Source: a virus
IMG/VR virus record: IMGVR_UViG_3300013138_000584
Span: 1 to 28,364 of that record
Direction: 5' to 3' (one strand)
DNA length: 28,364 bases
Both the position numbers and the translations under genes were made by a program. Positions 8,406 to 24,659 of this stretch are shown here, piece by piece. Within the stretch, counting starts at the first letter, position 1; each line of letters starts with the position of its first letter. The notes beneath the pieces are model-generated. The model saw only the letters and a list, made by a program, of their open reading frames with translations. It did not search any database and was not told the origin of the DNA.

Positions 8406-10013
8406 ATGGCATATGTAAAACCCGGAGTTGAAATTGTACAAGAAGCTAGATCAACTACTCCTGCGTTAATTACTCCAGATCTTATGGGTGTACTTGTTGG
8501 TAATGGTTATTACTGGCAGGATCCATCTATAGATACGTCAATAGTAGTAGGAACAACTTATGATGGAACATCAACTCAAGTTGCACTTAGTGGTATCAAT
8601 ACTATATTTTATGATGTAACTGGATTAGAAGAATTAGTAGTAGTAGATTTAATTACAATTTCAGGCAATGGAATAGGAGATGTAACTCATTTAGTTTACA
8701 CAGATGATTACACAGTAGCCAATAATACAGTAACTATATCAGCAAATGTAGCATACCAAAGTAATTTATACCAGATTAGAATAGGATACTTGGCACTCAA
8801 GAATTCAAGCGACTATGGTTTTAAAACACTTTATTCATTAGCTGATATAGAAGAAACAATTGGCGAGCCAGTATCTTGGAATCCATTAGCATTTGGTGCA
8901 CGTTTAGCTATGTTAAATTCTGGAAGAGAAGTTAATGTAATAAACGTATCTGGTGTAACTGAAAATGATATGGAACAAGGTCTTGAATTATTAGGTACTC
9001 GTGAAGTTTATGCAATTGCACCAGTTACCCATAACTTGGGTATTGGAACAATGAAAACTCATGTAGACTTATATTCATCGGCTTCATACAAGAAAGAAAG
9101 AATTGCAATCATGAATCAGGACCTTTCAGGTTTCTGGGCAGGAACTGCATTTTCAACTGATAACACAGAAAAAACAACAACTGTAACATCTATAAGGGAT
9201 GCAAATATTGCCTATCTAGATAGACGAGTGGTAATCACACATCCTGATGTAGCATACATTACAGAAACACGTCATATTAGTACAATCAGTCCGACTTGGA
9301 TCACTAATAGTTTTACACCAACTTCTGCAGGCTTTGCATCTTATGGTCTGAAAGCTAAGTTTGCTTTTGATGCTTTTATCAATGGCAAGAAATATAAAGC
9401 TGATACAGAAATAACAGAAACTATTTGGGCAGAAGTACGAGATGCTGGTTGGGCAGGTGGAGATGGAATGGTAACTGTAAAAGTTCCTGTTCCAGGATAT
9501 TATTATCCTGCATTAGTAGTAGGTCAGGTTATTGGAGAGTTCCCAGAACAACCTTTAACTAATTTACCAACTACAGGATTAGAAGAAGTATATGGTTCAT
9601 CTGATTATTATAATGAAGCTCAGTTAAATCTTTTAGCTGAAGGTGGAACATACATTATGGTTCAAGCTAATCCTAATGCTCCTGTAGTATCAAGACATCA
9701 GTTAACTACTGATATGACACAGGTATCAAAGAGAGAGTTAAGTATTGTAAAGGCACTTGATTATGTAGCCAAATTCATAAGAAAATCTATGTCACCATAC
9801 ATAGGTAGATACACAATCACTCCAGCATTCTTAAAACTTGTTAATTCAATATTAATAAGTATCTCCTTATATCTGACCCGTGAAGGTAGAATTGCGGATA
9901 TGAAAATACTATCAGTTGCTGTTGATGATATCGCACCAGATACTATCAAAATAACAGTGGATATTAAAGTTAAGTATCCAGTTAATTATATTAAAGTAAC
10001 CTTATTATTCTAA
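8406..10013 (+). CDS. tail sheath protein
   Basis: A 535-residue contractile tail sheath subunit. The N-terminus MAYVKPGVEIVQEARSTTPA is the typical start of sheath proteins, whose extended N-terminal arm links neighbouring subunits. The C-terminal domain (KALDYVAKFIRKSMSPYIG, then NSILISISLYLTREGRI and the closing beta strands DTIKITVDIKVKYPVNYIKV) is the conserved sheath core that packs on the tube. The middle (residues about 50-330) is the variable outer domain. It is followed 11 bases later by the tail tube gene, the canonical myovirus order. A GGAGG site lies 8 bases before the ATG. This gene shows that the phage has a contractile tail. Confidence 0.92.
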   Translation: MAYVKPGVEIVQEARSTTPALITPDLMGVLVGNGYYWQDPSIDTSIVVGTTYDGTSTQVALSGINTIFYDVTGLEELVVVDLITISGNGIGDVTHLVYTDDYTVANNTVTISANVAYQSNLYQIRIGYLALKNSSDYGFKTLYSLADIEETIGEPVSWNPLAFGARLAMLNSGREVNVINVSGVTENDMEQGLELLGTREVYAIAPVTHNLGIGTMKTHVDLYSSASYKKERIAIMNQDLSGFWAGTAFSTDNTEKTTTVTSIRDANIAYLDRRVVITHPDVAYITETRHISTISPTWITNSFTPTSAGFASYGLKAKFAFDAFINGKKYKADTEITETIWAEVRDAGWAGGDGMVTVKVPVPGYYYPALVVGQVIGEFPEQPLTNLPTTGLEEVYGSSDYYNEAQLNLLAEGGTYIMVQANPNAPVVSRHQLTTDMTQVSKRELSIVKALDYVAKFIRKSMSPYIGRYTITPAFLKLVNSILISISLYLTREGRIADMKILSVAVDDIAPDTIKITVDIKVKYPVNYIKVTLLF

Positions 10014-11535: not shown

Positions 11536-11800
11536 GATTATTTTTGATTAAATCTTTTAATTCAAGAACTTCTTGTAAAATCAAATTTAATTTTTTACTG
11601 TCAGTTGACATCATTGCATATTCATAATCACTTAATAATACTAAATGTTTTTTTTCATTATAAGCATCCTGCATAATTTTATGAAAATCAGTATCTATGG
11701 GTCCAACACATTCACAAATCATTTCAACTGATCTTGTACCTGTAGCAGGAGTCCGATTCATAGAAATAGATTTGGGTAAAAATTTTATTAATGTATCCAA
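11528..11800 (-). CDS. small protein of unknown function
   Basis: A 90-residue protein between polA and the dNMP kinase, overlapping the first by 13 bases and the second by 8. The N-terminal half is predicted beta (TGTRSVEMICECVG) and the C-terminal 30 residues form a leucine-rich helix (SKKLNLILQEVLELKDLI) that could dimerise. No known motif is visible. It may be an accessory to replication because of its place in the operon, but that is only a guess. Confidence 0.55.
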   Translation of the reverse strand: MDTLIKFLPKSISMNRTPATGTRSVEMICECVGPIDTDFHKIMQDAYNEKKHLVLLSDYEYAMMSTDSKKLNLILQEVLELKDLIKNNHD

Positions 11801-12456
11801 TGTTTTCCCACCTTTGGCTTTACTTCCATAGGAACAGAATCAGCATAATGATTAAAAGCTTTTATCATTTCTTCTTCAGTAGCTTTTTTAACTTCTTCTG
11901 TATGTTCAGGAGCAACTTCAACTAGTATTTCATCATGAATAGCATTCACTATTCTTGCATTATAACCATTTTTTCTTATTCTATTATTTAAGCGAACTAA
12001 CGCTAATTTAGTAGTTGATGCCCCAGCACCCTGAAATGGTAAATTTTTTGATTGATTTATAGCATGTGCTACCATAGCTTTATTATCCCAATCAATTTCA
12101 TGTAGGTCTACTCTACGACCATCTAGTGGAGATAGAGCAAAATGTTCAGATTCTACACGTTCTACTATCTCATCCATAAAAGATTTTACTCGTGTAAATA
12201 CTGCGAAGTATCTATTCATTAGAGCTCTTGCATCTGCATAAGGAATTTTTAATTGAGTAGAAAGTTTTTTAGGTCCAGCACCATATAGTAGTGCAAATGT
12301 TATTGCTTTACATTGACCACGTTCAGTAGGGCTAATTGAATTATAATCTTTTTCGAAGAGCAAACTTGCAGAGTAAGTATGTAAATCTACCCCTGTAGTT
12401 AATGCCTGAATCATCTGAGGTTCTTGGCTTGCATGTGCTAATAAGCGTAATTCTTG
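11788..12456 (-). CDS. polA: DNA polymerase family A, exon 2 (palm/fingers)
   Basis: Encodes the last 222 residues of the polymerase after intron removal, starting with CAA GAA at 12456-12451. It holds the O-helix motif B (R-x3-K-x3-F with ALLYG, R47 to G60 of the unspliced frame). The usual FG is FA here. It also holds motif C (HDE, H175-E177), whose aspartate is a catalytic metal ligand. Joined to exon 1, motif A becomes DFSGQELR, equal to the classic DYSQIELR, so the active site is rebuilt only after splicing. An ATG at 12459-12457 that would allow separate translation lies across the splice boundary and has no ribosome binding site. The spliced protein is 596 residues, compact like other phage family A enzymes. 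Confidence 0.9.
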   Translation of the reverse strand, partial: QELRLLAHASQEPQMIQALTTGVDLHTYSASLLFEKDYNSISPTERGQCKAITFALLYGAGPKKLSTQLKIPYADARALMNRYFAVFTRVKSFMDEIVERVESEHFALSPLDGRRVDLHEIDWDNKAMVAHAINQSKNLPFQGAGASTTKLALVRLNNRIRKNGYNARIVNAIHDEILVEVAPEHTEEVKKATEEEMIKAFNHYADSVPMEVKPKVGKHWIH

Positions 12457-13451
12457 CATTTTATCTTTATTTTCATAAAGTATGGGACTGCTCTTTACCT
12501 TAGTAATAGTGTTACTGTAGGTATACCATGTAAGTCCTCGACACTTGCCCAGAGATTGGTTCTCTTGCTAGCTCGGGATTGCCTTCAACGGACTTGTTAA
12601 GGTTTCCCCGAATTAGTGGTATGTTCTTCTATAAATTTCTTTATAGAGGGGCCTAATTTATTATATTTACGTTGTAAAAACACATCAGCATTTATGTACA
12701 CGTGAGAGACAAATTTTATTATTTCTTTTTGCGTACAAATTCTAAGCACTCCCAAATAGGTTTTAAACTGTCCAGTGACTTTTATTTTATTTTTATTAAA
12801 AAATGTTTTTAATTGTTTATAAAATTGTTTAGAACCAGTAACTATTTCTATTTGATTTCTATTATTTGAGAGTTGCCTAATATACCCATCCCCATCTAAA
12901 ATTCCTCTAATAATATCCCAAGTTAATTCTATTTTTAATTTTAAAGTCTTACTTTTATTTGGGGTAATTCCTAAGGTGGTTAAATATGTATGAACCTCCT
13001 TATTTCCAAATCTAACAGAATACATATAAGAATTAAATTTTTTATTTAAATATTTTCTTGGCTTTATATTATATCCTATAAATTTAGCATATTTGCACAA
13101 ATGTTTTTTATCGATTTCTGCAGCACTAATATCTATAGTATATTTACTATTTTTTGGGTCTGATAAATTACCATCAGCCATTAAAAATCCTAACCAATAC
13201 TGAATAGTTGGATTTTTTAGATTTTCAAATGGGTTTGTCTTTACAACTTTTTGAGTTTCCGAAGGTCCTTTCAACATATAATTATTTCTTAATAAAATTC
13301 TACGAATTGTGGTATTATATGTTTGAAATTGTTTAGCAATCTCGGTAGGAGAAAGTCCATCTTCAAATAACTTACAAATTTTTAATTCTAAATCATTAGT
13401 ATATTTCATATTTTAATATACCAATTAAATATAATAAAGTCAAATATCTTG
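12457..13451 (-). mobile_element. group I intron in polA (995 bases)
   Basis: The intron starts after the U of a GGT glycine codon (13452) and ends with G at 12457, as group I chemistry requires. Joining the exons restores DFSGQELR. The core helices can be drawn from the sequence (minus strand): P2 TCTATAAA/TTTATAGA with GAAA loop (12628-12647); P3 ATACCA (12622-12617) with TGGTAT (12528-12523); P4 TTCGGG (12612-12607) with CCCGAG (12577-12572); P5 CCTT (12602-12599) with AAGG; P7 GGACT (12537-12533) with AGTCC (12489-12485); P8 ACCT..AGTAA with TTACT..AGGT (12522-12497); P9 CTTTA/TAAAG (12480-12465). A short P1 (GGGU with GCCC at 12652-12649) is possible. P and Q strands match the usual consensus closely. 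It is probably self-splicing and mobile through the enclosed endonuclease gene. Confidence 0.92.
12597..13409 (-). CDS. LAGLIDADG homing endonuclease of the polA intron
   Basis: A 270-residue enzyme with two LAGLIDADG helices: WLGFLMADGNL and IIRGILDGDGYI, each ending in the metal-binding acidic residue. The two together form a single-chain pseudo-dimer that cuts an intronless polA allele to copy the intron. An N-terminal helix-turn-helix (SPTEIAKQFQTYNTTIRRIL, about residues 20-40) probably adds DNA contacts. The start is 42 bases from the 5' splice site and lacks a Shine-Dalgarno sequence. The last 18 or so codons (ending TTNSGKP) overlap intron helices P2, P3, P4 and the start of P5, so ribosome passage would disrupt the ribozyme. 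The reading frame is intact, which suggests recent activity. Confidence 0.93.
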   Translation of the reverse strand: MKYTNDLELKICKLFEDGLSPTEIAKQFQTYNTTIRRILLRNNYMLKGPSETQKVVKTNPFENLKNPTIQYWLGFLMADGNLSDPKNSKYTIDISAAEIDKKHLCKYAKFIGYNIKPRKYLNKKFNSYMYSVRFGNKEVHTYLTTLGITPNKSKTLKLKIELTWDIIRGILDGDGYIRQLSNNRNQIEIVTGSKQFYKQLKTFFNKNKIKVTGQFKTYLGVLRICTQKEIIKFVSHVYINADVFLQRKYNKLGPSIKKFIEEHTTNSGKP

Positions 13452-14573
13452 ACCCGAAAAATCTGCGCTTATAAAATTCCATGTAGGGTCTTGAACACCA
13501 AAAGGAGTTCTATAGTCCTGTTCTTTTGGCAGGTTCATCATATTAGGATCATCTGAACTTATTCTACCAGTTTGAGCTTTTAATTGACGATACTTGGAAT
13601 GTATTCTATTATCAAATTTATGTATATTGTTTAAGAAAGCTAATCCATAAGTTGATATTTTCTTTTGTTCTTGTCTATAGTCTATTAAATCTGCAATTAC
13701 TTCGTGCTTATCTTTATAAAATTCTAAGTATTTTGCGTCAGTACTAGTTAATTCTAACTGTGTAACTTCACGTAATCTAGGTAATAATTGTTTAGGAGAA
13801 TTATAATTAATTACGTATTCTACCTCACCAAATAAATCAGTACTTATATTGGCTTCAATAAAGTACTTGAAGTGTTCGTCTAATTTTGTTTTGGATTTAG
13901 CCAAACTTACCTTTGCTTTTTCTTCAAGAGGTATCCATAAATCCTTATCCAAATAAATACCATCAAGTGACATATTACCCAATACAGCTGCAGTTTCATT
14001 TTCTAATAAAGATAATTCTTCCATATCTCTATCTTTCAATAATTTTTGTATATTACTATAAATAGGTAGTAAATATTCAACATCCTCCGCAGCATACATA
14101 ATTTGTTCATGAGAAAATTCTTCACCATAGCGATGATCTTGAAAAGTGTCTCTAACAGATTTTTCTAGAATAATGCCCATGTATTTTTTTGTGACTCCCT
14201 CTAAACTAAAAGCTACTCCCTTTTTACCTTGATTCAGTAACTGTTCTCCAAGCATAGTACATTTCATATTATTTAAAGCTATTCCATAATTGGCCTTTAT
14301 TTGCATATAATCAAATATAGAATTATGTAATACTTTAGTTATTTGATGTTGATTTATAGAAGTAAGTAATTGTTTAGTTACCTTTTCTCCTATTTTTGCA
14401 ACATCAAATACATATTGTCTAGCAGGAGTACCGATTTGTATTAATAGAATTTTACTAATCAATGGATCTAGGCCAGTGGTTTCAGTGTCTATTGCAATGG
14501 AATCTTGTTTTAAAATCCAATCTATAGCATCTTGTACGTTTTCAGGTTTATCTATAAAATTATATTTATCCAT
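13452..14573 (-). CDS. polA: DNA polymerase family A, exon 1 (3'-5' exonuclease and thumb)
   Basis: Encodes 374 residues before the intron. The exonuclease domain is intact: Exo I IAIDTETTGLDP (D29, E31), Exo II HNSIFDY, Exo III YAAEDVEYLL. The polymerase part begins near residue 200, with the thumb, the conserved TGRISSDDPNMMNLP and motif A ending ADFSG (D371, first catalytic aspartate). Read without splicing, the frame continues QDI and stops at 13440-13442. This would leave a 377-residue product with exonuclease but no full polymerase site. It lacks the 5'-3' exonuclease of bacterial Pol I, as usual for phages. The ATG overlaps the sigma-factor stop by one base, so sigma and polymerase are translationally linked. 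Confidence 0.92.
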
Positions 14574-15370
14574 TATCCGAGATACTCTCTGAGCTGATTT
14601 GCATATTTATCGTCTTTTAATTTATCTATTGTTTTTTCTTTTATTTGTCTGATTCGTTCTCGAGTTAATCCATGATCTACACCTATTTCTTTTAAAGTGT
14701 ATGGGCGTAGTTTATCTATTCCAAAATACATTATTAAAATATCTCGTTCTCGTTCAGAAAAATCATCTAGAATGAATTCTAGTTCATCTTTTACATCTTC
14801 TAACAGAGCTGCAGGATCTATGACTGTGTTATCAGGTAGTATATCATTTAAATCTTTTGAGTTATCAGTTCGTGGTGCATCTATATCAACTGTACCATAA
14901 TTATATTTTAATACCTTTATTACTTCTTCGTCATCACTATATTCAATTAATTCTTCATCACTAATCGCATGTCCAAGTTCCTGTTCAAGTTCAGTTCTCA
15001 TTTTTCTAAGATTTGATAACTCAAGTAATACGTTTAAAGGTAATCTAACTATTTTAGTATTTTCTTCTATAGCTTTACGTATTGTCTGTTTTATCCACCA
15101 AACAGCATAAGTAATAAATTTTGAATCTCTTGTAGGATCAAATCTATCAAAAGCTTTTACCAGTCCTGTATTTCCTTCTGCTATAAGTTCGTCTAATGGC
15201 AGACCTTGGTTCTGATATTTCTTTGCCACACTAACAACAAATCTAAGATTTCTATTTAATAATTCTTCGTAGGCTTTTCTATCACCAGCTTTTGCTTTAT
15301 CTATTACACTCTTTTCTTCTTCTTTTGTAAATGGTGGAAATCTACGTATTTCTTTCAAGTATTGTTCCAT
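14573..15370 (-). CDS. sigma-70 family factor, primary-like (RpoD type)
   Basis: A 265-residue sigma factor that would direct the host RNA polymerase to phage promoters. Region 1.2 (MEQYLKEIRRFPPFTKEEEK) is followed by a complete region 2 (residues 38-105; NLRFVVSVAKKYQNQGLPLD and KFITYAVWWIKQTI). These carry the core-binding and -10 recognition helices. Then come region 3 (IVRLPLNVLLELSNL) and region 4 (SERERDILIMYFGI; helix-turn-helix TLKEIGVDHGLTRERIRQI). Region 1.1 is missing. The wording of regions 2 and 3 is closer to Bacteroidota primary sigma factors than to Bacillota SigA. It sits downstream of the ubiquitin-like cassette with a zero-base gap to the 79-residue gene. Most phage sigmas are far more diverged, so this is a recent capture or a host-like decoy. 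Confidence 0.92.
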   Translation of the reverse strand: MEQYLKEIRRFPPFTKEEEKSVIDKAKAGDRKAYEELLNRNLRFVVSVAKKYQNQGLPLDELIAEGNTGLVKAFDRFDPTRDSKFITYAVWWIKQTIRKAIEENTKIVRLPLNVLLELSNLRKMRTELEQELGHAISDEELIEYSDDEEVIKVLKYNYGTVDIDAPRTDNSKDLNDILPDNTVIDPAALLEDVKDELEFILDDFSERERDILIMYFGIDKLRPYTLKEIGVDHGLTRERIRQIKEKTIDKLKDDKYANQLREYLG

Positions 15371-15610
15371 TTAAATTTCCTTTGGTTTGAGATGTTCAAT
15401 TGATTCACCATTATCTATCATTTCACATATTTTACATTTAATGATATGTTTTCTTCCATTACAGTTTTCAGGATTTTTCCAATTATGAAAAATTCTATCA
15501 TAATGCAAGTCGTCAGTTTTCATCTCTGTTTGTATATTCCAAATCTCTTTAAAATCTTTAGATTGGCTACGATGTTGTCTGCCATCGTCTGGCTTATTAA
15601 AAATTTCCAT
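15371..15610 (-). CDS. small protein of unknown function next to E1
   Basis: A 79-residue polar protein. Its start overlaps the E1-like stop by one base and its stop touches the sigma start. The C-terminal half has NCNGRKHIIKCKICEMIDNG: three cysteines and a histidine that could bind a metal. The N-terminal half is highly charged (DDGRQHRSQSKDFKEIW). It is too small and lacks the motif set for an E2. It may be an adaptor for E1 or for sigma, but nothing visible decides this. Confidence 0.5.
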   Translation of the reverse strand: MEIFNKPDDGRQHRSQSKDFKEIWNIQTEMKTDDLHYDRIFHNWKNPENCNGRKHIIKCKICEMIDNGESIEHLKPKEI

Positions 15611-16212
15611 TATAATGTATGAATAAATTCTGCGGGGTTATGCTCTCCTCGCAACCAATTTAAAATATAACTAACGCCATAACTTGCGGCATGAATATTA
15701 CCTCGTTGTACAATACCTTGCTCTAATTCCCAGGCGTTTTGACAACTACCATCTTCTACTTCTTCATCTGGCAATGTATTCAACATTGATTCATAAGTAT
15801 GTTTTTTACTTTTTGTGTAAGTTGCATATGATTTTCCTTCACTTCTCAGGTCTATCCAGTATGTTTCAGGTGAATCATTAAAAACATAATCGAACATCAT
15901 TTTTCGAAATCTAGTATTATCTACTGCAGCAACTATACAATCAAATCCCTTGAACATACTTTTTTTATCTATCTTTTTATTCAAGCCTTCCATTCCATAT
16001 CTAGCTGCTATGATTTCAACTTTAGGATCTAATACGTCAGATTTATTAAAATTTTGATAAGGTAGATTTTTTATATCCACGTCGTCATAGTCTGCGAAAG
16101 TTATTAATGCTGTCGTTATTTGATTTGTTTTACGTAAGCGATCTAATTCAGGTGCCATCCAGGAACCTATACCTCCGGCACCAACAATTAAAATATTTTT
16201 TACTTTTTTCAT
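15610..16212 (-). CDS. E1/ThiF-like adenylating enzyme
   Basis: A 200-residue Rossmann enzyme of the E1/ThiF/MoeB superfamily, which activates the C-terminal glycine of ubiquitin-like proteins with ATP. The nucleotide loop GAGGIGS (residues 11-17), the acidic strand ADYDDVDIKNLPYQNF (D41, D43) and the conserved AVDNTRFR (residues 96-103) are clear. In place of the usual N-L-x-R-Q, it has N-L-P-Y-Q, so the active-site arginine is a tyrosine. It has no Cys-x2-Cys zinc site, and only two cysteines, C92 and C157. C157 (DGSCQNAW) lies where a catalytic cysteine could be. At 200 residues it is a minimal E1. It lies 39 bases after the JAMM gene and has no Shine-Dalgarno sequence. Confidence 0.87.
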   Translation of the reverse strand: MKKVKNILIVGAGGIGSWMAPELDRLRKTNQITTALITFADYDDVDIKNLPYQNFNKSDVLDPKVEIIAARYGMEGLNKKIDKKSMFKGFDCIVAAVDNTRFRKMMFDYVFNDSPETYWIDLRSEGKSYATYTKSKKHTYESMLNTLPDEEVEDGSCQNAWELEQGIVQRGNIHAASYGVSYILNWLRGEHNPAEFIHTL

Positions 16213-16251
16213 GTTTTCTATTATCTTTAGATGTTTTAAATTAAAAAGGTT

Positions 16252-16737
16252 TTATTTTATTAATAAATAAGCTCCTCCAAAACCTCTAGTTTCTTTATAT
16301 CTGGCCGTGGCAATATTTGGATTGTCAGATCCCTCATTATACCAAGCCATTATATCTTTGTATAAATTTGAATAAATTACATATATTCCAGCATAACCTG
16401 CACCATCAATATCCATTTCTGATGGTATTGGTCTCCAGTAAGGATGATTGTGAAATACTCCGATGAAGGAAAGTGGTGCTTTTGGGTTCATATGTACATT
16501 GCTATTCATAAGTACTTTATTTAATAATTCATTTCCATCCATTATATAATCAGCAATACCCATGCCAGCAACATTTTTTATAGGTATAAAGTTAACCATT
16601 TTATACAAGCCAGAATCTTTATCTATAATGTTGCCCATTATAGCACCACATATTTCCTTATCAGGGGAAGTTTTTGCGTAGTCTATTAATTCATTTAATT
16701 GTATATAGGTTAACAAGAGTCCAGTCTTGTTGTCCAT
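16252..16737 (-). CDS. JAMM/JAB metalloprotease (deubiquitinase-like)
   Basis: A 161-residue JAB/MPN+ protease with the complete zinc site. E28 (DKEICGAIMG), H96 and H98 (FIGVFHNHP), S106 and D109 (IPSEMDID) obey E-x(n)-H-x-H-x10-D exactly. Such enzymes cut the bond after the terminal glycine of ubiquitin-like proteins. In phages with tail-tip JAB domains the gene usually lies in the tail module and is fused to NlpC/P60. Here it is a stand-alone gene in an early-type operon next to E1 and a Gly-Gly modifier, which points to removal or processing of the modifier. Because the modifier already ends in Gly-Gly, the likely role is deconjugation. The start lies 28 bases inside the upstream gene, with a GAGG site 5 bases before it. 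Confidence 0.92.
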   Translation of the reverse strand: MDNKTGLLLTYIQLNELIDYAKTSPDKEICGAIMGNIIDKDSGLYKMVNFIPIKNVAGMGIADYIMDGNELLNKVLMNSNVHMNPKAPLSFIGVFHNHPYWRPIPSEMDIDGAGYAGIYVIYSNLYKDIMAWYNEGSDNPNIATARYKETRGFGGAYLLIK

Positions 16738-16958
16738 GCTTCCTCGTTGTTTGCAAATTGATAGTTTAGATGATTATCTAATCCATCAATATCTTGTTTT
16801 AAAATGTGTAATAGTTGTCTTGTTTCGTGTCTTTCTTTTTTATGTATTAATTTTTTAATAAAAGTTCCGTGCATTTCAGTATCAGGACAACCACAATAAA
16901 ATACACCTCTATATGTCTTATTTGGATGTCCCTTTAATTCTGCATTTACTCCATGCAT
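16710..16958 (-). CDS. 82-residue protein of unknown function in the ubiquitin-like cassette
   Basis: The N-terminal 30 residues contain GHPNKTYRGVFYCGCPD, a possible metal site or nucleophile. The rest is helical, basic then acidic (FIKKLIHKKERHETRQLLHI). A GAGGT site lies 8 bases before ATG. It overlaps the JAMM gene by 28 bases and follows a 14-base-pair-class hairpin region after the ubiquitin-like gene. The HPN and following cysteine superficially recall E2 enzymes, but the domain that should precede HPN is absent. I cannot assign a function. Confidence 0.6.
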   Translation of the reverse strand: MHGVNAELKGHPNKTYRGVFYCGCPDTEMHGTFIKKLIHKKERHETRQLLHILKQDIDGLDNHLNYQFANNEEAWTTRLDSC

Positions 16959-16988
16959 TCGAAATACCTCGATTTTGTATTAAAGGTA

Positions 16989-17008
16989 GCGTGGGGATTA
17001 ACCCACGC
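16989..17008 (-). terminator. intercistronic hairpin after the ubiquitin-like gene
   Basis: GCGTGGG and CCCACGC pair perfectly in 7 base pairs around a 6-base loop, 8 bases after the Gly-Gly gene's stop. On the minus strand it is followed by TACCTTTAAT, a weak T-run. This could be a partial terminator or mRNA-stabilising hairpin that keeps the modifier more abundant than the 82-residue protein, JAMM and E1. Confidence 0.6.
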
Positions 17009-17015
17009 TTAAATA

Positions 17016-17276
17016 TTATCCTCCTACAAGAGCATTAGTTAGAATAACATATTCTGCATCTAAAAGTTTTTCAACGGTTAAGTTATTAGCGTTTTGTTGA
17101 ACGCCATCTATATATAACCATTTTTTACTATTAGCCATTTCGTTTTGTATTCTAGATAATGCAATTTCAGGAACATCTTGCCATTCGTCATGTCCACGAG
17201 AACTAACGACTCTAACAGTGATCTTACGTTCTAATTGTTCCTGAAAGGCTTCGATACTTACTTTTTCATTTATCAT
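17016..17276 (-). CDS. ubiquitin-like protein ending in Gly-Gly
   Basis: An 86-residue protein with a beta-grasp pattern: strand pair at residues 18-34 (KITVRVVSSRGHDEWQDV), a helix at 36-50 (PEIALSRIQNEMANS), a strand-turn KKWLYIDGVQQ (compare ubiquitin's LIFAGKQL), and a last strand with LTVEKLLDAEYVILTNALVGG. It ends exactly at Gly-Gly (residues 85-86, followed by stop), so no processing of a tail is needed before activation. An E1-like enzyme and a JAMM protease follow in the same operon. The length matches single-domain modifiers. There is no Shine-Dalgarno sequence. A 12-base palindrome occupies the leader instead. The fold is inferred from sequence pattern, but the context makes it strong. 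Targets are unknown. Confidence 0.83.
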   Translation of the reverse strand: MINEKVSIEAFQEQLERKITVRVVSSRGHDEWQDVPEIALSRIQNEMANSKKWLYIDGVQQNANNLTVEKLLDAEYVILTNALVGG

Positions 17277-17296: not shown

Positions 17297-19459
17297 TCAG
17301 TTTAAGGTGTGGATATCCTGCGCTAGTGCCTGATCATTAGTAAGCGCATATAAGCGGTTTATGAGTTTGTCTTTTCCAACCTGTGATGTTGATTTATCGA
17401 CTATACATATGTATCTACCAGATGGATATTCATAAACTTCACATTTGTCTGTGTTTGCTACCACATATTGTCTAAGTTTTCCGTTTACTATATAACCCTC
17501 TTTTACAGTAACCTCATTCATTTGAATGTTTTCTTGTTTACTCAACTTGAGAGTTTTTTCTGTTTCATCAAGTAATTTTTTACTCTTATCTATTGCATCT
17601 TGATATTCAATCTTAGCTAATTTTAATACAGATTTTGCATCATCTATGGTCATACCTTCGATAACTTTATCACCTAAAAGTAATTCCATAATTTCACCAA
17701 GATCTCGTAAATTTTGCATATTTATTAGTCTATTTGTATCTCTGACTTTATACTCATTATCCCCTAATACAATATACATTAAATTTTTTCTTCGTTCAAG
17801 GGGTAATTTAAAAGAAAACCCCTCATTATATCTCATACCAGATACCTCAAAATCAACACCAGTTTGTAAGTATCTGTGAAATTTCAATGAACAACTACTA
17901 ACATTAGCCAAAAATTCATCAAAATCTTCTTGAGTAGTATAACATACTGCTCGTCTTAAACAGTCTGAAATTTCAGCTTTATTTATTCTATATTCATTTA
18001 AATAAGTTTTTGTACTATCAATACCTGCAGTATTTGTAGAAACATCATATACTAATTTAAATTTTACTTCTCCAAGTTGGCCTTCTGAACTTACCCAAGA
18101 TGCAGATGATACAAATTGTTCAAAAGTGGCATCCCAGTTTATATCATCGAACTGATGTGCTCTGGATAAATCATATAAAATGTTGTACACCCAATCACTA
18201 GAGTCTGTACGACTAAGTGTTTGTCCTTCATATTCGATTTTATCTTTTTGCACAGTCATTCCATTTAGAATTAATTTTTTCTTACCAGTCTTTATACCTT
18301 CTAGTCTTTCTTTTAATTTGGCCTCTAGAATTTTCTTTTCTTCTTCGGCTTCCTTTTCTCGTCTAGTCTCTTCAGAGAATTTTTTAATAGAAAGTTTTAA
18401 TTGTGAGGCATCACATAGCTGAGTGTTATCACCAGTAACGTGTCTAGCCATCCACAATAGCACCTGTGTGGTAGGTAATGTAATTTCTTCTGTAAAAATT
18501 ACTTTACCAAATACCGCGTTCTTATCTAATGCAAAAATATTATTATAACTATAATAATTTTTTCTACCAAATATTATAACTCTTTTTGCATCTGCATAAT
18601 TAAATAATGCATCTGTATGACTAAGTAAGAATATTCGTCTGTGAGATGCTGTTCTATAATAATCATTTGTAAATACTGCTAAAATACCTAGTCTATAATT
18701 ATCTTTTTCATAGACACTCTCTATATATCCAACTGGATTTTCTCTAGTGCCACTTCCTAATAATTTTTTCTCTAATAGATCATCTGTAACTGAAGTAATT
18801 TTAGCATTTGGCATTAACCAATCACACATGGATTGTATTTGATCAAATGTATTATCCATTGCCATAGTTGTGTTTATAGCCGTATCTTTATTTAGTTCAT
18901 CTAATTTTAATTTTTCTAATATTCGAGGTCCATTAGTAACTTCAATAAACCAAGTCAAATCATCACAAATATTCATAGATCTAAATTTATCACGTTCTTC
19001 TTTATTAAGAGCTTTAATTCCCATTTCATGACAGAAATGTAAATTTTCTAATAGAGTATGAAACTGCTCAGCATCTATTGTTTTTACTTTAATAGAAAGT
19101 TTGGAGTTAGTAAAACTATCTGAGGCAAACTCAAAATAAGAAGTAGTTACAGGAACTAGTAGAGTTTGTTTTTGTTCATTACCATCAGAATCAAGAACTT
19201 GAGGTACTTGACCAGCATGTATTTCTAATCTACCTCCCCAATCATCATTAAGATACATAGTGTGAGTGATAGTATTTATCCCGTTATCTATTACGTGATT
19301 TATCGAACCCACACTAGTATGTTTAAATGGTTTTCCTAAGTCTTTTAATTTTTTAGCAACCTCTTCTTGTACAGAAAAGGCTTTTGTCATTTCTTCTTCT
19401 GAGAATTTTAATTCGTACATCTCATTAAATAATGGCAAAGTTTGTTGTGTCACTTTCAT
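17297..19459 (-). CDS. 720-residue protein of unknown function upstream of the ubiquitin-like gene
   Basis: A large cytosolic protein without membrane segments or signal peptide. Residues 1-350 are mixed alpha/beta (TITHTMYLNDDWGGRLEIHA; RRIFLLSHTDALFNYADAKR). Residues 357-390 are a highly charged coiled coil (EETRREKEAEEEKKILEAKL), and residues 395-600 form another alpha/beta part. Near 615-655 a helix-rich stretch follows (DDAKSVLKLAKIEYQDAIDK), then a beta end. No ATPase, nuclease or E2/E3 motif is visible. It is 20 bases upstream of the modifier gene, so it may be the substrate, partner or scaffold of the ubiquitin-like pathway, or just a replication protein. No ribosome binding site is seen before its ATG. 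Confidence 0.6.
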   Translation of the reverse strand: MKVTQQTLPLFNEMYELKFSEEEMTKAFSVQEEVAKKLKDLGKPFKHTSVGSINHVIDNGINTITHTMYLNDDWGGRLEIHAGQVPQVLDSDGNEQKQTLLVPVTTSYFEFASDSFTNSKLSIKVKTIDAEQFHTLLENLHFCHEMGIKALNKEERDKFRSMNICDDLTWFIEVTNGPRILEKLKLDELNKDTAINTTMAMDNTFDQIQSMCDWLMPNAKITSVTDDLLEKKLLGSGTRENPVGYIESVYEKDNYRLGILAVFTNDYYRTASHRRIFLLSHTDALFNYADAKRVIIFGRKNYYSYNNIFALDKNAVFGKVIFTEEITLPTTQVLLWMARHVTGDNTQLCDASQLKLSIKKFSEETRREKEAEEEKKILEAKLKERLEGIKTGKKKLILNGMTVQKDKIEYEGQTLSRTDSSDWVYNILYDLSRAHQFDDINWDATFEQFVSSASWVSSEGQLGEVKFKLVYDVSTNTAGIDSTKTYLNEYRINKAEISDCLRRAVCYTTQEDFDEFLANVSSCSLKFHRYLQTGVDFEVSGMRYNEGFSFKLPLERRKNLMYIVLGDNEYKVRDTNRLINMQNLRDLGEIMELLLGDKVIEGMTIDDAKSVLKLAKIEYQDAIDKSKKLLDETEKTLKLSKQENIQMNEVTVKEGYIVNGKLRQYVVANTDKCEVYEYPSGRYICIVDKSTSQVGKDKLINRLYALTNDQALAQDIHTLN

Positions 19460-19478: not shown

Positions 19479-19910
19479 TTAATTAAAAAGTTCTTTTTTA
19501 ATTGGTTTAGGTTTTTCCTCATTAACTAAAGTTGCTTTCAAGTCACTCTCATCTATATCGCATGTAGTTAATACAAGATAATTATTTTTATCAGGATACA
19601 CAGCCAACTTTTTACCTATGAATTCATTTAATTTAGTTACTCCGTGATATTTCATAAGCTGTGCTACAGCGGACATTGGAGAAATTCCATTTTTACCAGT
19701 TGAATACCAAAGACCTTTTATATCTTTATCTCCTTTATAATCTTCTACCCAGCAGTCTGAGATAGTGAAATTGCGACCATTCTCATCCTCTACAGTAAAT
19801 TCTACTTTCTGAGATACCTTATCGGGCATAACCACATCTTTTAAATTAATAACTTTTACTGTAACATCTCTATCTAAACTACCTATAGATTTATTTAAGA
19901 AGTCTTCCAT
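19479..19910 (-). CDS. small protein, possibly single-stranded-DNA-binding or OB-like
   Basis: A 143-residue protein of beta strands (DVTVKVINLKDVVMPDKVSQ, then KVEFTVEDENGRNFTISDCW) with a helical part (MSAVAQLMKYHGVTKLNEFI), and a lysine-rich, disordered end (EEKPKPIKKELFN). The beta pattern and its position among replication genes are compatible with an OB-fold single-strand binding protein, but there is no specific motif, so the call is tentative. It starts 69 bases after the ribonucleotide reductase stop, across an inverted repeat, and 19 bases separate its end from the 720-residue gene. Confidence 0.45.
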   Translation of the reverse strand: MEDFLNKSIGSLDRDVTVKVINLKDVVMPDKVSQKVEFTVEDENGRNFTISDCWVEDYKGDKDIKGLWYSTGKNGISPMSAVAQLMKYHGVTKLNEFIGKKLAVYPDKNNYLVLTTCDIDESDLKATLVNEEKPKPIKKELFN

Positions 19911-19979: not shown

Positions 19980-22900
19980 TTAGCATTTACTCCAACCACA
20001 GTTAATACAAGTTTTACATCCATCCTGATATATTATTGTACTTGTTTTACAAGAAGGACACTTTTCTTTTTTAACTTTAGTGCCATCCTGTATATAACGA
20101 GATAATAATTTAGAAAGATAAAATACAAAACTTGATAATTCATGTGGGTATTTATCTAGTATTTCTACTACGTCTTGTATCTTCAGGTTGTGACGTAATG
20201 CCATACCAATAATTCTAGCTATTCGTGTAGTATTTTTTTGATTCTCATATTTAGTAATTTGCTCTTCAATAAGTTTTTTAGGCAAACCTTTTTCGGTAAG
20301 AAGTTTTTCCATAGATTTAACAAGTTCTTCAGTAACTTCTGTACTCTCTATGTTATTTGTACTAACGAACATTGCATAGGGTCTAGTCATGGCTTCATCA
20401 ACAAATGCTAGGTTAATGTACCATTTTTTACGACCATTATCTTTAATTTTAAATCCACGAGCAAAATATTCATTGGGTATTTTTCCTACATTCTGAATTA
20501 CTTTATCGCCCGCTTCAGCGAACTGTCTTTCAAGTTCATTTTGATAAATCTTTACTTTTCTAGTTTCTAAAACAGCAGTCATCGTACCAGCTCTATATGT
20601 AGTGAGTCCTTTTATATTTGATTTCCAAGCATCCAAATATAAAGACTTGAAATCTTCATACGGGTAATCACTGGGTAAATTAACTGTTTTTGAATTATTC
20701 ATATTAGTATAATGAGCAACTACTTTTAAAACATTTATATGATCTGTCACTGATAAATCCATAGCACTTGCAAATATTCCTTTTGATTGCATATCAAGTA
20801 ATTTATCTTTATAATAATTTTTAGCAAATTCCCATCCATAGTCAGAAACAAGGACTGCTTTTACTAAACCTCTATTTTTATCAACCTCATAATCAATGTT
20901 TTCAAAAGTTCCTTTTAGAATTTGTTCATCGCCTTTAATAAAAAATTTAACATGTTCTGTTTCAAACCATTCTCCCTTCAATGGGTCTGGCCAAGTGAAT
21001 CCTTTTCTTTTTAAACTACGTTTTTCATTTTCTGTAACTATTGCCCATCGAGTATATTCTAACATAAAAGAAGGCTCTATTCCACCAGTAACTATTCCTG
21101 CGTATATACTAGTATTTCCATTAGGTGCATTCATAGAATGATGAGAGTTTCTCATGTATCCAATGTTTTCAATTTCTTGTTTTACACTTGGAGATATTTT
21201 TAAATTGTTCCACCAATAGGTGCTAAAGTATTTCTCTTTATCAAATAATTTAAAACTTCCCTTTTCTTTTCCAAGTTGTGCCGATGCCAGTAATTCTGTT
21301 TCAGCTTTTAATTTATAAATATTTTTAATTAATTCCAGAGATTCTTCTGACCCATATCTTATACCAAACATTAGCATTAAAGATCCGAGTCCCATATTAC
21401 CCAAACCTATTCTTCGTTTTTCTGTCATAGAATCTTTGTATTCTTTTAGTGGAGCTCTCGAAATATCATTTATATTATCTAAATATCTTACACCTAATTT
21501 TACACATCTAGCATATTCATCATAATCAAATTCTAATTTATTATTTATAAGTTTTACAAACTTGGTTAAGTTTAAAGAACCAAGATTGCAAACTCCTGTT
21601 GCCATACCAATTTCACCACAAGGGTTAGTAGCAAATATATCTTCAGCATAACTTAGAGCATTTAATTTATTAAATAAATCAAGAAATATTACACCAGGTT
21701 CATTACGTGTGTAGGTAGCATAAGATATGGTTTCCCACAGATCTTTTGCTTTAACAGTTTTATATACAATTACTTTATATCCTTTAGATTTCCAGTCTTT
21801 AATATCCCCTTTCCACTCATCTTCATATTTAGGGTGTTCTGTATCAGGAAAAATTAATTGCCAATCTTCATCATTTTCTACAGCTTTCATAAAACCTGTA
21901 GTAACACCTATTGACATATTAAATTTTGTAAGTCTTCCTGGAGTTTGTTTTGCAATAATATAATCTTCTATTTCTGGGTGCCATACAGAAAGAACAGCCA
22001 TTTGTGCACCTTTACGAATTTTTGTTTTCTCATCATCATGCAATTCACCAAGAATCTTTTCTGATCCCATAGTAATTATTTTAGATGATACATCCCATAA
22101 TTCCATAAAGTGTAGTACTCCTGGAGTACGGCTACCTATTCCTTTTACATATGAGCCTGCAGGACGAATCCAACTAAAGTTCATACCATAACCACCCTCA
22201 GACTTAAGGGTATGTGCCTGAGCCTTTAACATTGTGTAGATACCCTCTATAGAATCAGGATCTTTATAATTTATGTCTTTTGGATGATGCACATAACATT
22301 GCCCAGTCAAATAGCAATTATCAATAACCATTGTATGAGTTTCTTCTTCTACACAGCAAAATACTTCTTCTATAGTATTCATATTTTCAATAGAAACAAC
22401 TTTTATACTAGTATATTTTTCTGGAACTTTACTATTAAACATGTTTTGCTTATGACTATTTTTAATAATCATCTTTTCATCATACATATATTTTTTTACT
22501 AGACTAAGTTTCCATAAAGGTTTATAACTACCATCAAATGGACTATGAGTTCGTACTAAGGTGATATTAGTAGTAGGTAGTCCAGCATATGTGCATATAG
22601 TTCGTATTTCTTGTAGTACTTCTTTATCTTTACAATGCAACATTACATGACCATTAATATCGACATGCCCGTCTGCTCCTATATAACCAGCGATAAACCC
22701 ACGTAAGTAAGATTTAGATTCTTGTAGGGATGGTAAACTTTTTAATTTATTTTCTAAATGTGTTACTGATAGATATACATGGTCAACAGATTTAGTATAT
22801 GATTCAAAATAGTCTTCAATTAAGTGTTTACTATCACCGTATTGTCTTAACATTGAATACTTACCACTCATATATAACCAACCATCTCCAAAAACTAATC

Positions 22901-23468
22901 CGTGTCGTACACCATTTAAGTAATCTAACTCATCATAATTAAAATTTGTAATTCCTACAAGTGGTATAAAAGAATTTTCAAGATCAACTGTTTTTACTCT
23001 TTTCCATCCGCCCTTATTATTTCGGATTACCCATTCATGCTCCGCAGTTGCATACAATTCGTCTTCATTTTCTAAAGTTATTTTATATAATTCCTGGTTA
23101 CCATAGGAATACCATTTAGCAGGTCTGTACATACCATCTTCAGAAAGAACATTTACTTCAGTATCAGAAAGTTCTTTTGCATAAAAAATACCAATATCTG
23201 TATGTATTTTTGTATTTCCACTTATACAATTCATAAGTGTAGTAGCATGGCGAGTATCTATGCCGAGGTTTGCCATTATTCTCCCGCCAGGGATGAATTT
23301 AAAATCATTCAGAATAGAATAAAACTCATTTGAGATTTGTTTTCGTATTTCCTTGTTTTCTATTTTTGCGGCTTCAATTGCCAATCGTTTCCAAGTATCT
23401 TCGATTGTTGTCTCTCCAGGTCCTCTGTAATTATCGTTCCAGATTTCCTCTGAGTATTTATTCATCAT
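19980..23468 (-). CDS. nrdJ: class II (adenosylcobalamin) ribonucleotide reductase with intein
   Basis: A 1162-residue precursor. Removing the intein at residues 81-390 leaves an 852-residue reductase that makes deoxynucleotides for DNA synthesis. The N-terminal FKFIPGGRIMANLG, the active-site NPCGEIGMATGVCNLGS (N-x-C-x-E, then the redox Cys of VCNLG) and NAPNGNTSIYAGIVTGGIEP are standard. The C-terminal tail with CPSCKTS and then GCKTCINCGWSKC is the zinc or redox tail of class II enzymes, so it should need vitamin B12 and not oxygen. The intein sits exactly before the N-terminal redox cysteine (TLMN-CYV). A GAGGT site lies 8 bases upstream of ATG. It is next to dUTPase, so nucleotide genes are grouped. 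Confidence 0.92.
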   Translation of the reverse strand: MMNKYSEEIWNDNYRGPGETTIEDTWKRLAIEAAKIENKEIRKQISNEFYSILNDFKFIPGGRIMANLGIDTRHATTLMNCISGNTKIHTDIGIFYAKELSDTEVNVLSEDGMYRPAKWYSYGNQELYKITLENEDELYATAEHEWVIRNNKGGWKRVKTVDLENSFIPLVGITNFNYDELDYLNGVRHGLVFGDGWLYMSGKYSMLRQYGDSKHLIEDYFESYTKSVDHVYLSVTHLENKLKSLPSLQESKSYLRGFIAGYIGADGHVDINGHVMLHCKDKEVLQEIRTICTYAGLPTTNITLVRTHSPFDGSYKPLWKLSLVKKYMYDEKMIIKNSHKQNMFNSKVPEKYTSIKVVSIENMNTIEEVFCCVEEETHTMVIDNCYLTGQCYVHHPKDINYKDPDSIEGIYTMLKAQAHTLKSEGGYGMNFSWIRPAGSYVKGIGSRTPGVLHFMELWDVSSKIITMGSEKILGELHDDEKTKIRKGAQMAVLSVWHPEIEDYIIAKQTPGRLTKFNMSIGVTTGFMKAVENDEDWQLIFPDTEHPKYEDEWKGDIKDWKSKGYKVIVYKTVKAKDLWETISYATYTRNEPGVIFLDLFNKLNALSYAEDIFATNPCGEIGMATGVCNLGSLNLTKFVKLINNKLEFDYDEYARCVKLGVRYLDNINDISRAPLKEYKDSMTEKRRIGLGNMGLGSLMLMFGIRYGSEESLELIKNIYKLKAETELLASAQLGKEKGSFKLFDKEKYFSTYWWNNLKISPSVKQEIENIGYMRNSHHSMNAPNGNTSIYAGIVTGGIEPSFMLEYTRWAIVTENEKRSLKRKGFTWPDPLKGEWFETEHVKFFIKGDEQILKGTFENIDYEVDKNRGLVKAVLVSDYGWEFAKNYYKDKLLDMQSKGIFASAMDLSVTDHINVLKVVAHYTNMNNSKTVNLPSDYPYEDFKSLYLDAWKSNIKGLTTYRAGTMTAVLETRKVKIYQNELERQFAEAGDKVIQNVGKIPNEYFARGFKIKDNGRKKWYINLAFVDEAMTRPYAMFVSTNNIESTEVTEELVKSMEKLLTEKGLPKKLIEEQITKYENQKNTTRIARIIGMALRHNLKIQDVVEILDKYPHELSSFVFYLSKLLSRYIQDGTKVKKEKCPSCKTSTIIYQDGCKTCINCGWSKC
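22299..23228 (-). mobile_element. LAGLIDADG intein in the ribonucleotide reductase
   Basis: A 310-residue intein (residues 81-390 of the precursor). It starts with Cys1 (CISGNTKIHT, block A) and has TxxH of block B at T141-H144 (ATAEHEWVI). It carries two LAGLIDADG-type helices, HGLVFGDGW (D195) and LRGFIAGYIGADG (D266), between the splicing blocks. Block F is EVFCCVEEETHTMVIDNCY, and the intein ends LTGQ before Cys+1. The last residue is Gln with Gly before it, not the common His-Asn. Inteins with C-terminal Gln are known to splice (for example in an iridovirus reductase), so this can be active but is atypical. The insertion site is the redox-active cysteine of the reductase. Confidence 0.93.
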
Positions 23469-23926: not shown

Positions 23927-24186
23927 TATTGTTCGTTTGGTTTTATTTCATTTAACTTTAGTTTAAACATATATTTAATTTCTGTTATTGGAAAAATTGC
24001 TGTTTCAAATTCTATAGCATTATCTATTTGTTCAAGAAATTTTGTATCTTTAAATCCTTTAACTTCTATTCCATCTTCAGCCATATCTATATCAGTCACT
24101 ATACCTATAACACCAACAGCAATATCGGTAGTAATTCTTACTGTATCTCCAACCTTTATTTTTTTATATACAAATCTAGGATTCAT
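23926..24186 (-). CDS. small SH3/KOW-like protein of unknown function
   Basis: An 86-residue protein whose core KVGDTVRITTDIAVGVIGIV then VKGFKDTKFLEQI is the pattern of small SH3-like barrels of the KOW type that bind nucleic acid or proteins. The C-terminal end is basic. It lies between recU and dut with 4- and 1-base overlaps, so it is part of the replication operon. No more specific role can be given. Confidence 0.5.
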   Translation of the reverse strand: MNPRFVYKKIKVGDTVRITTDIAVGVIGIVTDIDMAEDGIEVKGFKDTKFLEQIDNAIEFETAIFPITEIKYMFKLKLNEIKPNEQ

Positions 24187-24659
24187 GTAAGTTCAGCTTC
24201 CATTTCATCTACTTTATCGAGATAATTCTCAATATCAATTAACCACTCATTTTTAAATTCCTTGAAAGGTATAGATTTTCTAATATCTTCTTCTATAAAT
24301 TTTTCAATTAAACTGATAGGAGTTATGAATACTTTATCTGGATACATTTTTTTAAAATGAATCATAAAGAATGCGATTCCTCCAAGGTTTTGTTGAAACC
24401 TCAAGTAAGCTAATTGGTGATCTTCGATATTTGCTAGTGGAAAACTTGTTTTACTTTGGGTCTCTTTTGCATCAAAAGCTATAGATTTTCCACCCTTTAA
24501 TGTGCCTGTATAATCGACGGTTGATTGCTTTGCTACAAGACCCTTGCTAGTTATAATTATAGGAACTTCTATCTTAAGAATCAAGGCCCGATTATCTTTT
24601 CTGTATAAAATATTTTGTCTATTTGCTCTCTTTTCGAGATCGCTTCCTTTTAATCCCAT
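24183..24659 (-). CDS. recU: RecU-like Holliday junction resolvase
   Basis: A 158-residue nuclease of the RecU family. The key segments are ALILKIEVPIIITSKGLVAKQ, STVDYTGTLKGGKSIAFDAKE (D and the DxK-like catalytic residues of the fold), FPLANIEDHQLAYLRFQQN and the Gly-Gly-Ile-Ala-Phe-Phe strand. Such enzymes cut four-way junctions formed by recombination or replication-fork restart before packaging. The family is best known from Bacillota and their phages but is not exclusive. The start overlaps the glycosyltransferase stop by one base. There is no strong ribosome binding site. Confidence 0.85.
   Translation of the reverse strand: MGLKGSDLEKRANRQNILYRKDNRALILKIEVPIIITSKGLVAKQSTVDYTGTLKGGKSIAFDAKETQSKTSFPLANIEDHQLAYLRFQQNLGGIAFFMIHFKKMYPDKVFITPISLIEKFIEEDIRKSIPFKEFKNEWLIDIENYLDKVDEMEAELT

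Follow-up and report, generated by a model that had tools for sequence, protein, structure and literature searches.

A candidate ubiquitin-like modification module within the replication and transcription block of an uncultured phage lineage

What would a virus do with a small protein ending in Gly-Gly, an E1-like enzyme and a JAMM metalloprotease encoded side by side? The question is raised by the viral record IMGVR_UViG_3300013138_000584, whose whole length (28,364 bases) was analysed and is called the window here. An initial annotation of the window had proposed a phage tagging system made of these three genes. The linked cassette of ubiquitin-like modifier (Ubl), E1 and JAMM proved to be real, but the annotation left a conserved partner uncounted, the adjacent 720-residue protein p720. 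On the sequence evidence, we judge it probable that the cassette is a virus-encoded, reversible Ubl protein-modification module set among the core replication and transcription genes of a phage lineage. The three genes are as follows.

17016-17276 (−): Ubl, 86 residues, C-terminal Gly85-Gly86 (codons 17019-17024)
16252-16737 (−): Prok-JAB/JAMM metalloprotease (PF14464), with E28, H96xH98, S106 and D109
15610-16212 (−): ThiF-type E1-like enzyme (PF00899), 200 residues, candidate catalytic Cys157 (codon 15742-15744)

Modifier, protease and E1-like enzyme

The 86-residue open reading frame (ORF) ends at Gly-Gly as first described, and the β-grasp-like fold suggested for it agrees with structure prediction, by which the protein has a ubiquitin-like fold. 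The AlphaFold2 model, built on an alignment of eight natural homologues, reached a pLDDT of 81 and gave the order β-β-α-β-β-α-β, with β1 (19-25), β2 (28-34), α1 (36-50), β3 (53-56), β4 (59-61), a short helix (68-73) and β5 (77-80) followed by the tail to Gly-Gly. Foldseek matched this model in the PDB mostly to NEDD8, SUMO, ubiquitin and ISG15 (best probability 0.99, E 3.7e-3). Against viral models, annotated viral ubiquitin-like proteins were near the top, together with some unrelated matches. The sequence profile of the Ubl found no convincing PDB relative and no Pfam family, and the protein is therefore treated as a separate family.

Homologues were collected by iterated profile searches over loci retrieved with E1, which gave 44 distinct Ubl sequences. 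All 44 contained the Gly-Gly, which was exactly terminal in 17, followed by 1-3 residues in 21 and by longer tails in 6. An exact C-terminal Gly-Gly occurred in 5 of the 4486 other ORFs of the same loci. The Ubls of L088, L102, L104 and L106 were recovered from gaps between called ORFs, and each carried the Gly-Gly. At L102 (7750-8463) the Ubl runs past it by ~150 further residues, reminiscent of a ubiquitin-fusion precursor, and a JAMM gene follows; the Ubl of L012/L013 has nine residues after Gly-Gly. Such extensions are expected of a precursor that is matured by a protease.

The JAMM protein exceeded the cut-off of Pfam Prok-JAB (E=1.8e-7, 31.4 bits against 25), and JAB was the only domain that Pfam detected in it. 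The full E...HxHx10D pattern of the initial annotation was present, with an intact metal site formed by Glu28, His96-x-His98, Ser106 and Asp109 (HxHx7SxxD), and the catalytic residues were invariant in six homologues. Archaeal JAMM1 was the nearest solved chain (8.7e-12). The score with the desampylase model was 38.4 bits against a cut-off of 130.

The assignment of the third gene as an E1/ThiF-like enzyme was likewise upheld, with a single ThiF domain above the Pfam cut-off (E=7.2e-14, 51.9 bits against 28.1). GxGGxG (11-16), D41xD43, N49, K64 and D98 were conserved in eight homologues, as was S-C-Q at Cys157, an invariant motif. Narrower family models gave low values: PRTRC_ThiF (TIGR03736) matched at 9.5e-11 with 41.5 bits (cut-off 144.75), SAMPActivE1UbaA with 19.3 (450), adenyl_thiF with 35.1 (275.25) and MoeB with 22.3 (266). 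A plasmid PRTRC ThiF shared 29% identity with the enzyme across 83% of the query; for the nearest E1s from isolates, identity was ~33-44% and covered part of the protein. A single-sequence E1 query gave no matches among viral contigs, and alignment queries were required.

The gene block in phages and in probable archaeal viruses

Linkage was assessed by an independent scan of viral contigs that was seeded with the p720 C-terminal domain, avoiding the bias of E1-anchored searches, and that covers the sigma/PolA phage group. The scan gave 34 viral loci, ~20 of them distinct after removal of near-identical contigs. The Ubl with Gly-Gly and the E1 were found with p720 in all 34; JAMM, sigma and DNA polymerase A (PolA) each in 33; p143 in 30; and p79 in 16. 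The order was the same throughout, giving the fixed block p143 – p720 – Ubl – JAMM – E1 – (p79) – sigma70 – PolA, so that the gene order is indeed shared by other phages. The only locus lacking JAMM was contig 3300045118_000327 (L011/L236). With a ubiquitin-like prediction, Gly-Gly in 44 of 44 Ubls and linkage in 33-34 of 34 loci, the data gave neither a non-ubiquitin fold nor an unconserved Gly-Gly with unlinked genes, the outcomes named beforehand as contrary to the tagging proposal. The setting among replication and transcription genes, not tail genes, was also borne out, since p720, sigma and PolA are the constant neighbours.

More distant members (L015, L104, L106, L119-L121, L162) kept Ubl, E1 and p720, and in these sigma was sometimes not nearby. 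Every close relative is a metagenomic contig, several being near-identical, and the HMM iteration drew on loci found with E1. No isolate matched p720 among 50,697 phage records. One contig binned as a Methanomassiliicoccaceae archaeon (L164) carried the whole cassette, with the JAB split across two ORFs. Because sigma-70 and PolA accompany the cassette there, the contig appears to be bacteriophage DNA wrongly binned with an archaeal genome. At L012, a protein with an ATP-dependent DNA ligase domain (8634-9881), WGR-like by eye at its N-terminus, directly follows E1.

A second group of 52 loci (L107-L118, L122-L161) carried a TFIIB-like factor (TFB; PF08271, PF00382) in the place held by sigma in phages. 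TFB lay between a ~400-residue protein and E1 in 50 of the 52, and the two exceptions start at or just before E1. JAMM followed E1 in 51 of the 52. The Ubl was found upstream in 40 (several loci are cut short), ending in ...IVGG with mostly 0-2 residues after it. A GroEL/thermosome-like gene, read from sequence, follows in several loci, and many of the JAMM proteins have an acidic C-terminal tail such as EEE. Owing to the TFB, these viruses probably infect archaea. A host-prediction study with RaFAH counts MoeB/ThiF-family genes among the most prevalent auxiliary genes of predicted archaeal virus genomes, in which thermosomes also occur (PMC8276007, in the portions searched). The prevalent ThiF-family gene and the thermosomes are common to both data sets; Ubl, JAMM, the Cys-domain protein and the TFB linkage are not described in those portions of the paper. 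In a maximum-likelihood tree of 123 rows, whose root and long branches are uncertain, the E1s of the phages and of the TFB group formed one clade (support 99/90), apart from those of Flavobacterium phages and of Arash and cyanobacteria.

The sole further component common to both groups was a C-terminal Cys domain, carried by p720 in phages and, among the TFB loci, by the ~400-residue protein. Between these versions hhalign gave a match of 96% probability (E 1.3e-9). In p720 the domain lies at 17300-17638 (−) and contains the invariant Cys685 (codon 17405-17407); G, C, R, N, D and T were invariant over 22 diverse members. Its closest external likeness was the uncharacterised DUF7737 (PF24879), matched by 6 of the 22 members with a best value of 2.8e-4, below the curated cut-off. 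The domain profile matched nothing in the PDB and no phage E2-like profile; the two phage E2-like families also fail to match each other.

Within the window, the genes form a minus-strand operon read in the order ribonucleotide reductase (RNR), p143, p720, Ubl, p82, JAMM, E1, p79, sigma-70 and PolA. The genes around the cassette are listed below.

19980-23468 (−): RNR, with an intein-like insertion
19479-19910 (−): p143, conserved gene upstream of p720
17297-19459 (−): p720, 720 residues, constant partner directly upstream of Ubl
16710-16958 (−): p82, 82 residues, overlapping the JAMM start, fast-evolving and outside the core
15371-15610 (−): p79, 79 residues, H-N-W...C...C-x2-C, Zn-finger-like by pattern, possible adaptor
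14573-15370 (−): sigma-70 family factor immediately downstream of the cassette, with Pfam sigma-70 regions 2 and 4 (PF04542 3.9e-17, PF04545 1.5e-14)
13440-14573 (first part) and 11788-12459 (second part) (−): PolA (PF01612, PF00476)

Pfam and PHROGs searches of the window proteins gave no convincing family match for Ubl, p82, p79 or p143. Compared with the nearest relative, L004, dN/dS was 0.086 for Ubl, 0.081 for JAMM, 0.066 for E1 and 0.071 for p79, and 0.13-0.14 for p143, sigma and p720. This strong purifying selection indicates that Ubl, JAMM, E1 and p79 are not chance ORFs. p82 was weakly constrained (dN/dS 0.58), with homologues only in the nearest relatives, and was dropped as a core component. 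The 79- and 82-residue orphans had been put forward as E2 candidates. Given the partial occurrence of p79 and the narrow range of p82, the p720 C-terminal domain is indicated instead.

Other features of the window were noted. The RNR contains a 310-residue intein-like insertion at 22299-23228 (−), with LAGLIDADG_3 above the cut-off and Intein_splicing (PF14890) below it; the insertion has no counterpart in L004. PolA is split by a ~980-bp intervening sequence at 12460-13439 (−) that holds a LAGLIDADG ORF (12597-13409) and has no Rfam match; it is probably a mobile intron or similar, and the L004 polymerase is continuous (597 residues). The Rfam scan of the window found no RNA family. A RecU-like Holliday-junction resolvase lies at 24183-24659 (−; 1.4e-31). 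The RecU family is known mainly from Firmicutes and phages that infect them.

Proposed function and alternatives

Reversible protein modification is supported by the Ubl fold with its Gly-Gly, by the intact JAMM nearest to archaeal JAMM1 and by the active-site residues of E1. The synteny of the 34 phage loci, the 52 TFB loci, the shared E1 clade, the extended or fused Ubls and the lack of rhodanese in 24 viral records add to this support. The E1, probably a homodimer as in ThiF/MoeB, would adenylate the Ubl at its C-terminal glycine and, by family chemistry and residue conservation, may take it onto Cys157. The Ubl would then be passed to target lysines directly, or via p720 with Cys685 as candidate thioester or adaptor site. 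Archaeal sampylation (SAMP), which proceeds without a dedicated E2, offers a precedent for E2-less conjugation. The lysines may belong to viral or host proteins of DNA metabolism or transcription; the most economical candidates would be p720, RNA polymerase and the initiation factor encoded by the virus, which is sigma here and TFB in the archaeal-virus relatives. JAMM would mature the Gly-Gly-extended Ubl precursors of the relatives and remove the tag, as suggested by its intact site, its closest solved homologue and the Ubls that run past Gly-Gly.

In both groups the module adjoins a transcription initiation factor (sigma-70 or TFB), and in phages also PolA. This amounts to one association per group and not to 80 independent events. 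The adjacency fits a role in transcription or replication control, and simple operon inheritance could explain it too. A bolder proposal would have an ancient, virus-specific Ubl conjugation common to phages and archaeal viruses, in which the DUF7737-like Cys domain replaces E2/E3 and transcription is switched by modification of sigma/TFB or of recruited RNA polymerase. We hold this version to be rather unlikely.

Several results weigh against reversible protein modification. The Arg of the usual E1 NLxRQ motif is replaced by Tyr in this clade, and the TM-scores of the Ubl matches were modest (~0.43), a likeness of fold class and not a close one. The p720 structure prediction from seven sequences had low confidence (pTM 0.45), and Foldseek with that model gave noise and no usable match. 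Prok-E2_D, Prok-E2_B and UQ_con were unmatched in 24 viral records, a weak negative as the control genomes were unmatched too; to this extent the initial remark that no E2 is visible holds. In actinobacterial DUF7737 proteins the Cys is retained (LCIVP or similar), and in the five regions checked Ubl, E1 and JAB were absent within ~9 kb. The Cys is thus old and not specific to Ubl chemistry, and its conservation is no proof of thioester chemistry. For this reason, and given the negative profile comparison with phage E2-like proteins, which says little on its own, assignment of the domain as an E2 from its C-I-V-D / C-I-D-N motif and the following helix was dropped. The domain stays the strongest candidate, and no more, for an E2/E3 function or else for a dedicated effector or target.

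The main rival is sulfur transfer, in which E1 would make a Ubl thiocarboxylate as sulfur donor for a small molecule, a tRNA or a nucleotide, with JAMM just trimming the precursor. Such a scheme is described for siderophore clusters with ThiS/MoaD and JAB, and triads of Ubl, E1 and JAB without E2 are known from sulfur-transfer operons (PMC1779556). The single ThiF-type domain of E1 would suit this role, as would the weak negative for classical E2s given above. In the published clusters, however, a rhodanese domain or sulfur genes usually accompany E1 (PMC1779556). No rhodanese domain was found in the 24 viral records, which reach 210 kb and include the window, with 13 of 14 control genomes positive. 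The class-V aminotransferase (Aminotran_5) match was marginal and confined to two of the 24 records, and E1 scored below the ThiF/MoeB equivalog cut-offs. No adjacent sulfur acceptor was recognised among the constant neighbours p720, sigma/TFB and PolA, although the host could supply sulfur. Sulfur transfer is therefore disfavoured, and we regard it as unlikely. In another alternative, E1 and Ubl would serve a chemistry other than protein conjugation, such as MccB-type nucleotidyl or peptidyl modification of a small molecule, and p720 would use the activated Ubl. MccB and TcdA are among the nearest solved E1-fold relatives, and p720 is large and constant with conserved residues; the intact JAMM and the Ubls running past Gly-Gly are nevertheless better suited to maturation and removal of a modifier, and such chemistry seems very improbable.

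Two further explanations start from the JAMM gene. It may act in counter-defence, with Ubl and E1 as decoy or competitor, by reversing the Ubl conjugation of host defences (Bil or type II CBASS, for example). Hosts do deploy Ubl conjugation against phages (PMC10097602; Hor et al. 2024, as cited in PMC12660748), JAB deconjugates in such systems, and the PADLOC JAB models match the window protein weakly. Against this, the module is almost always present in its core block, whereas counter-defence genes are usually patchy, and it supplies its own E1 and modifier; we consider counter-defence improbable. A tail-assembly Ubl/JAB pair as in lambda TAPI/TAPK would account for the tail label that PHROGs gives to JAMM by similarity (6e-11). 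Here the JAB is stand-alone without NlpC/P60, an E1 is adjacent, and the genes occupy a fixed slot between p720 and sigma/PolA. This position in the replication/transcription block led us to reject tail assembly, which is extremely unlikely.

Ubl conjugation in prokaryotes has hitherto been known mainly as an antiviral host weapon or a plasmid-borne enigma. In a large uncultured phage lineage, and in probable archaeal viruses as well, the Ubl/E1/JAMM module belongs near-invariantly to the core. Should it conjugate protein, bacterial and archaeal viruses would use a reversible tag in the basic course of infection, perhaps with no E2 of the classical kind. The module would also bear on the origin of ubiquitin-like systems and offer a compact three- or four-gene system for reconstitution, and the p720 Cys domain would give a first functional handle on DUF7737.

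Comparison with known systems

Operons combining E1, JAB, Ubl and E2 (types 6a-6e) were described by Iyer, Burroughs & Aravind in 2006, together with the lambda-tail Ubl/JAB pair (PMC1779556). The viral module resembles types 6a-6e in a Ubl with C-terminal glycine, a rhodanese-free E1, an adjacent JAB, extra conserved proteins and a mobile-element distribution. It differs in lacking a recognisable E2 of the described families, in its short, single-domain E1 unfused to JAB, in p720 with its DUF7737-like Cys domain filling the fourth place, and in the viral replication/transcription setting with sigma or TFB. The E1 is related in sequence to the ThiF of PRTRC plasmid cassettes but falls below TIGR03736, and the PRTRC-type E2 (PF14460) gave no match in the window record or its relatives, a weak negative because the control genomes were unmatched as well.

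With the archaeal SAMP/UbaA/HvJAMM1 system, outlined in PMC12660748, the module shares a single small Gly-Gly modifier, a ThiF-type E1 and a JAMM nearest to archaeal JAMM1/desampylase. E1 and JAMM nevertheless score far below the UbaA and desampylase cut-offs, and the p720 partner and the viral location are new. The Ubl/E1/JAB logic is also that of BilABCD and of type II CBASS Cap2/Cap3. In Bil, the Ubl has two domains, the E1 combines an inactive and an active adenylation domain with a Cys domain, and an E2 is present (PMC11354881), whereas here the Ubl is a single domain of 86 residues, the E1 a single ThiF domain of 200 residues, and no E2 is recognisable. For type II CBASS, whose conjugation is described in PMC10097602, the E1-E2 fusion models matched the E1 part alone at ~17 bits, and no CD-NTase match was obtained among the neighbours p720, p79, sigma and PolA.

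Flavobacterium phage Fpv3 and Salmonella phage Arash likewise encode a ThiF and JAB pair. Their E1s belong to other clades, the JAB lies within a longer protein, a separate E2-like candidate is adjacent, and p720 is absent. These cassettes of cultured phages lie at 4622-7972 of L002 (Fpv3) and 1519-4539 of L003 (Arash), and their E2-like candidates have FCIG and MCVG motifs. Their genes are annotated as hypothetical, thiamine biosynthesis or structural, and a 289-residue protein of Fpv3 may hold a Ubl domain. ThiF-family E1-like proteins are also encoded by the crAss-like phages DAC15, cr106_1, cr126_1 and Kolpuevirus. In L165-L189, mostly Nostocales genomes and one plasmid, cyanobacterial ThiF genes lie near LPN...CFGG E2-like proteins homologous to Arash gp248.

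No account of this viral cassette, the p720 partner or the TFB counterpart was found in the literature searched, a scope outside which subscription papers and preprints lay. By its sequence features the module appears to belong to the Ubl-E1-JAMM class in the broad sense, with a predicted β-grasp Ubl bearing a C-terminal Gly, a linked E1 with catalytic residues and a linked intact JAMM, and it falls outside the defining tests of the Bil, CBASS, PRTRC, SAMP and lambda-tail sets. So far as that literature goes, Ubl-E1-JAMM modules are known, and what is new is this viral version, with its p720 partner and its place beside sigma or TFB.

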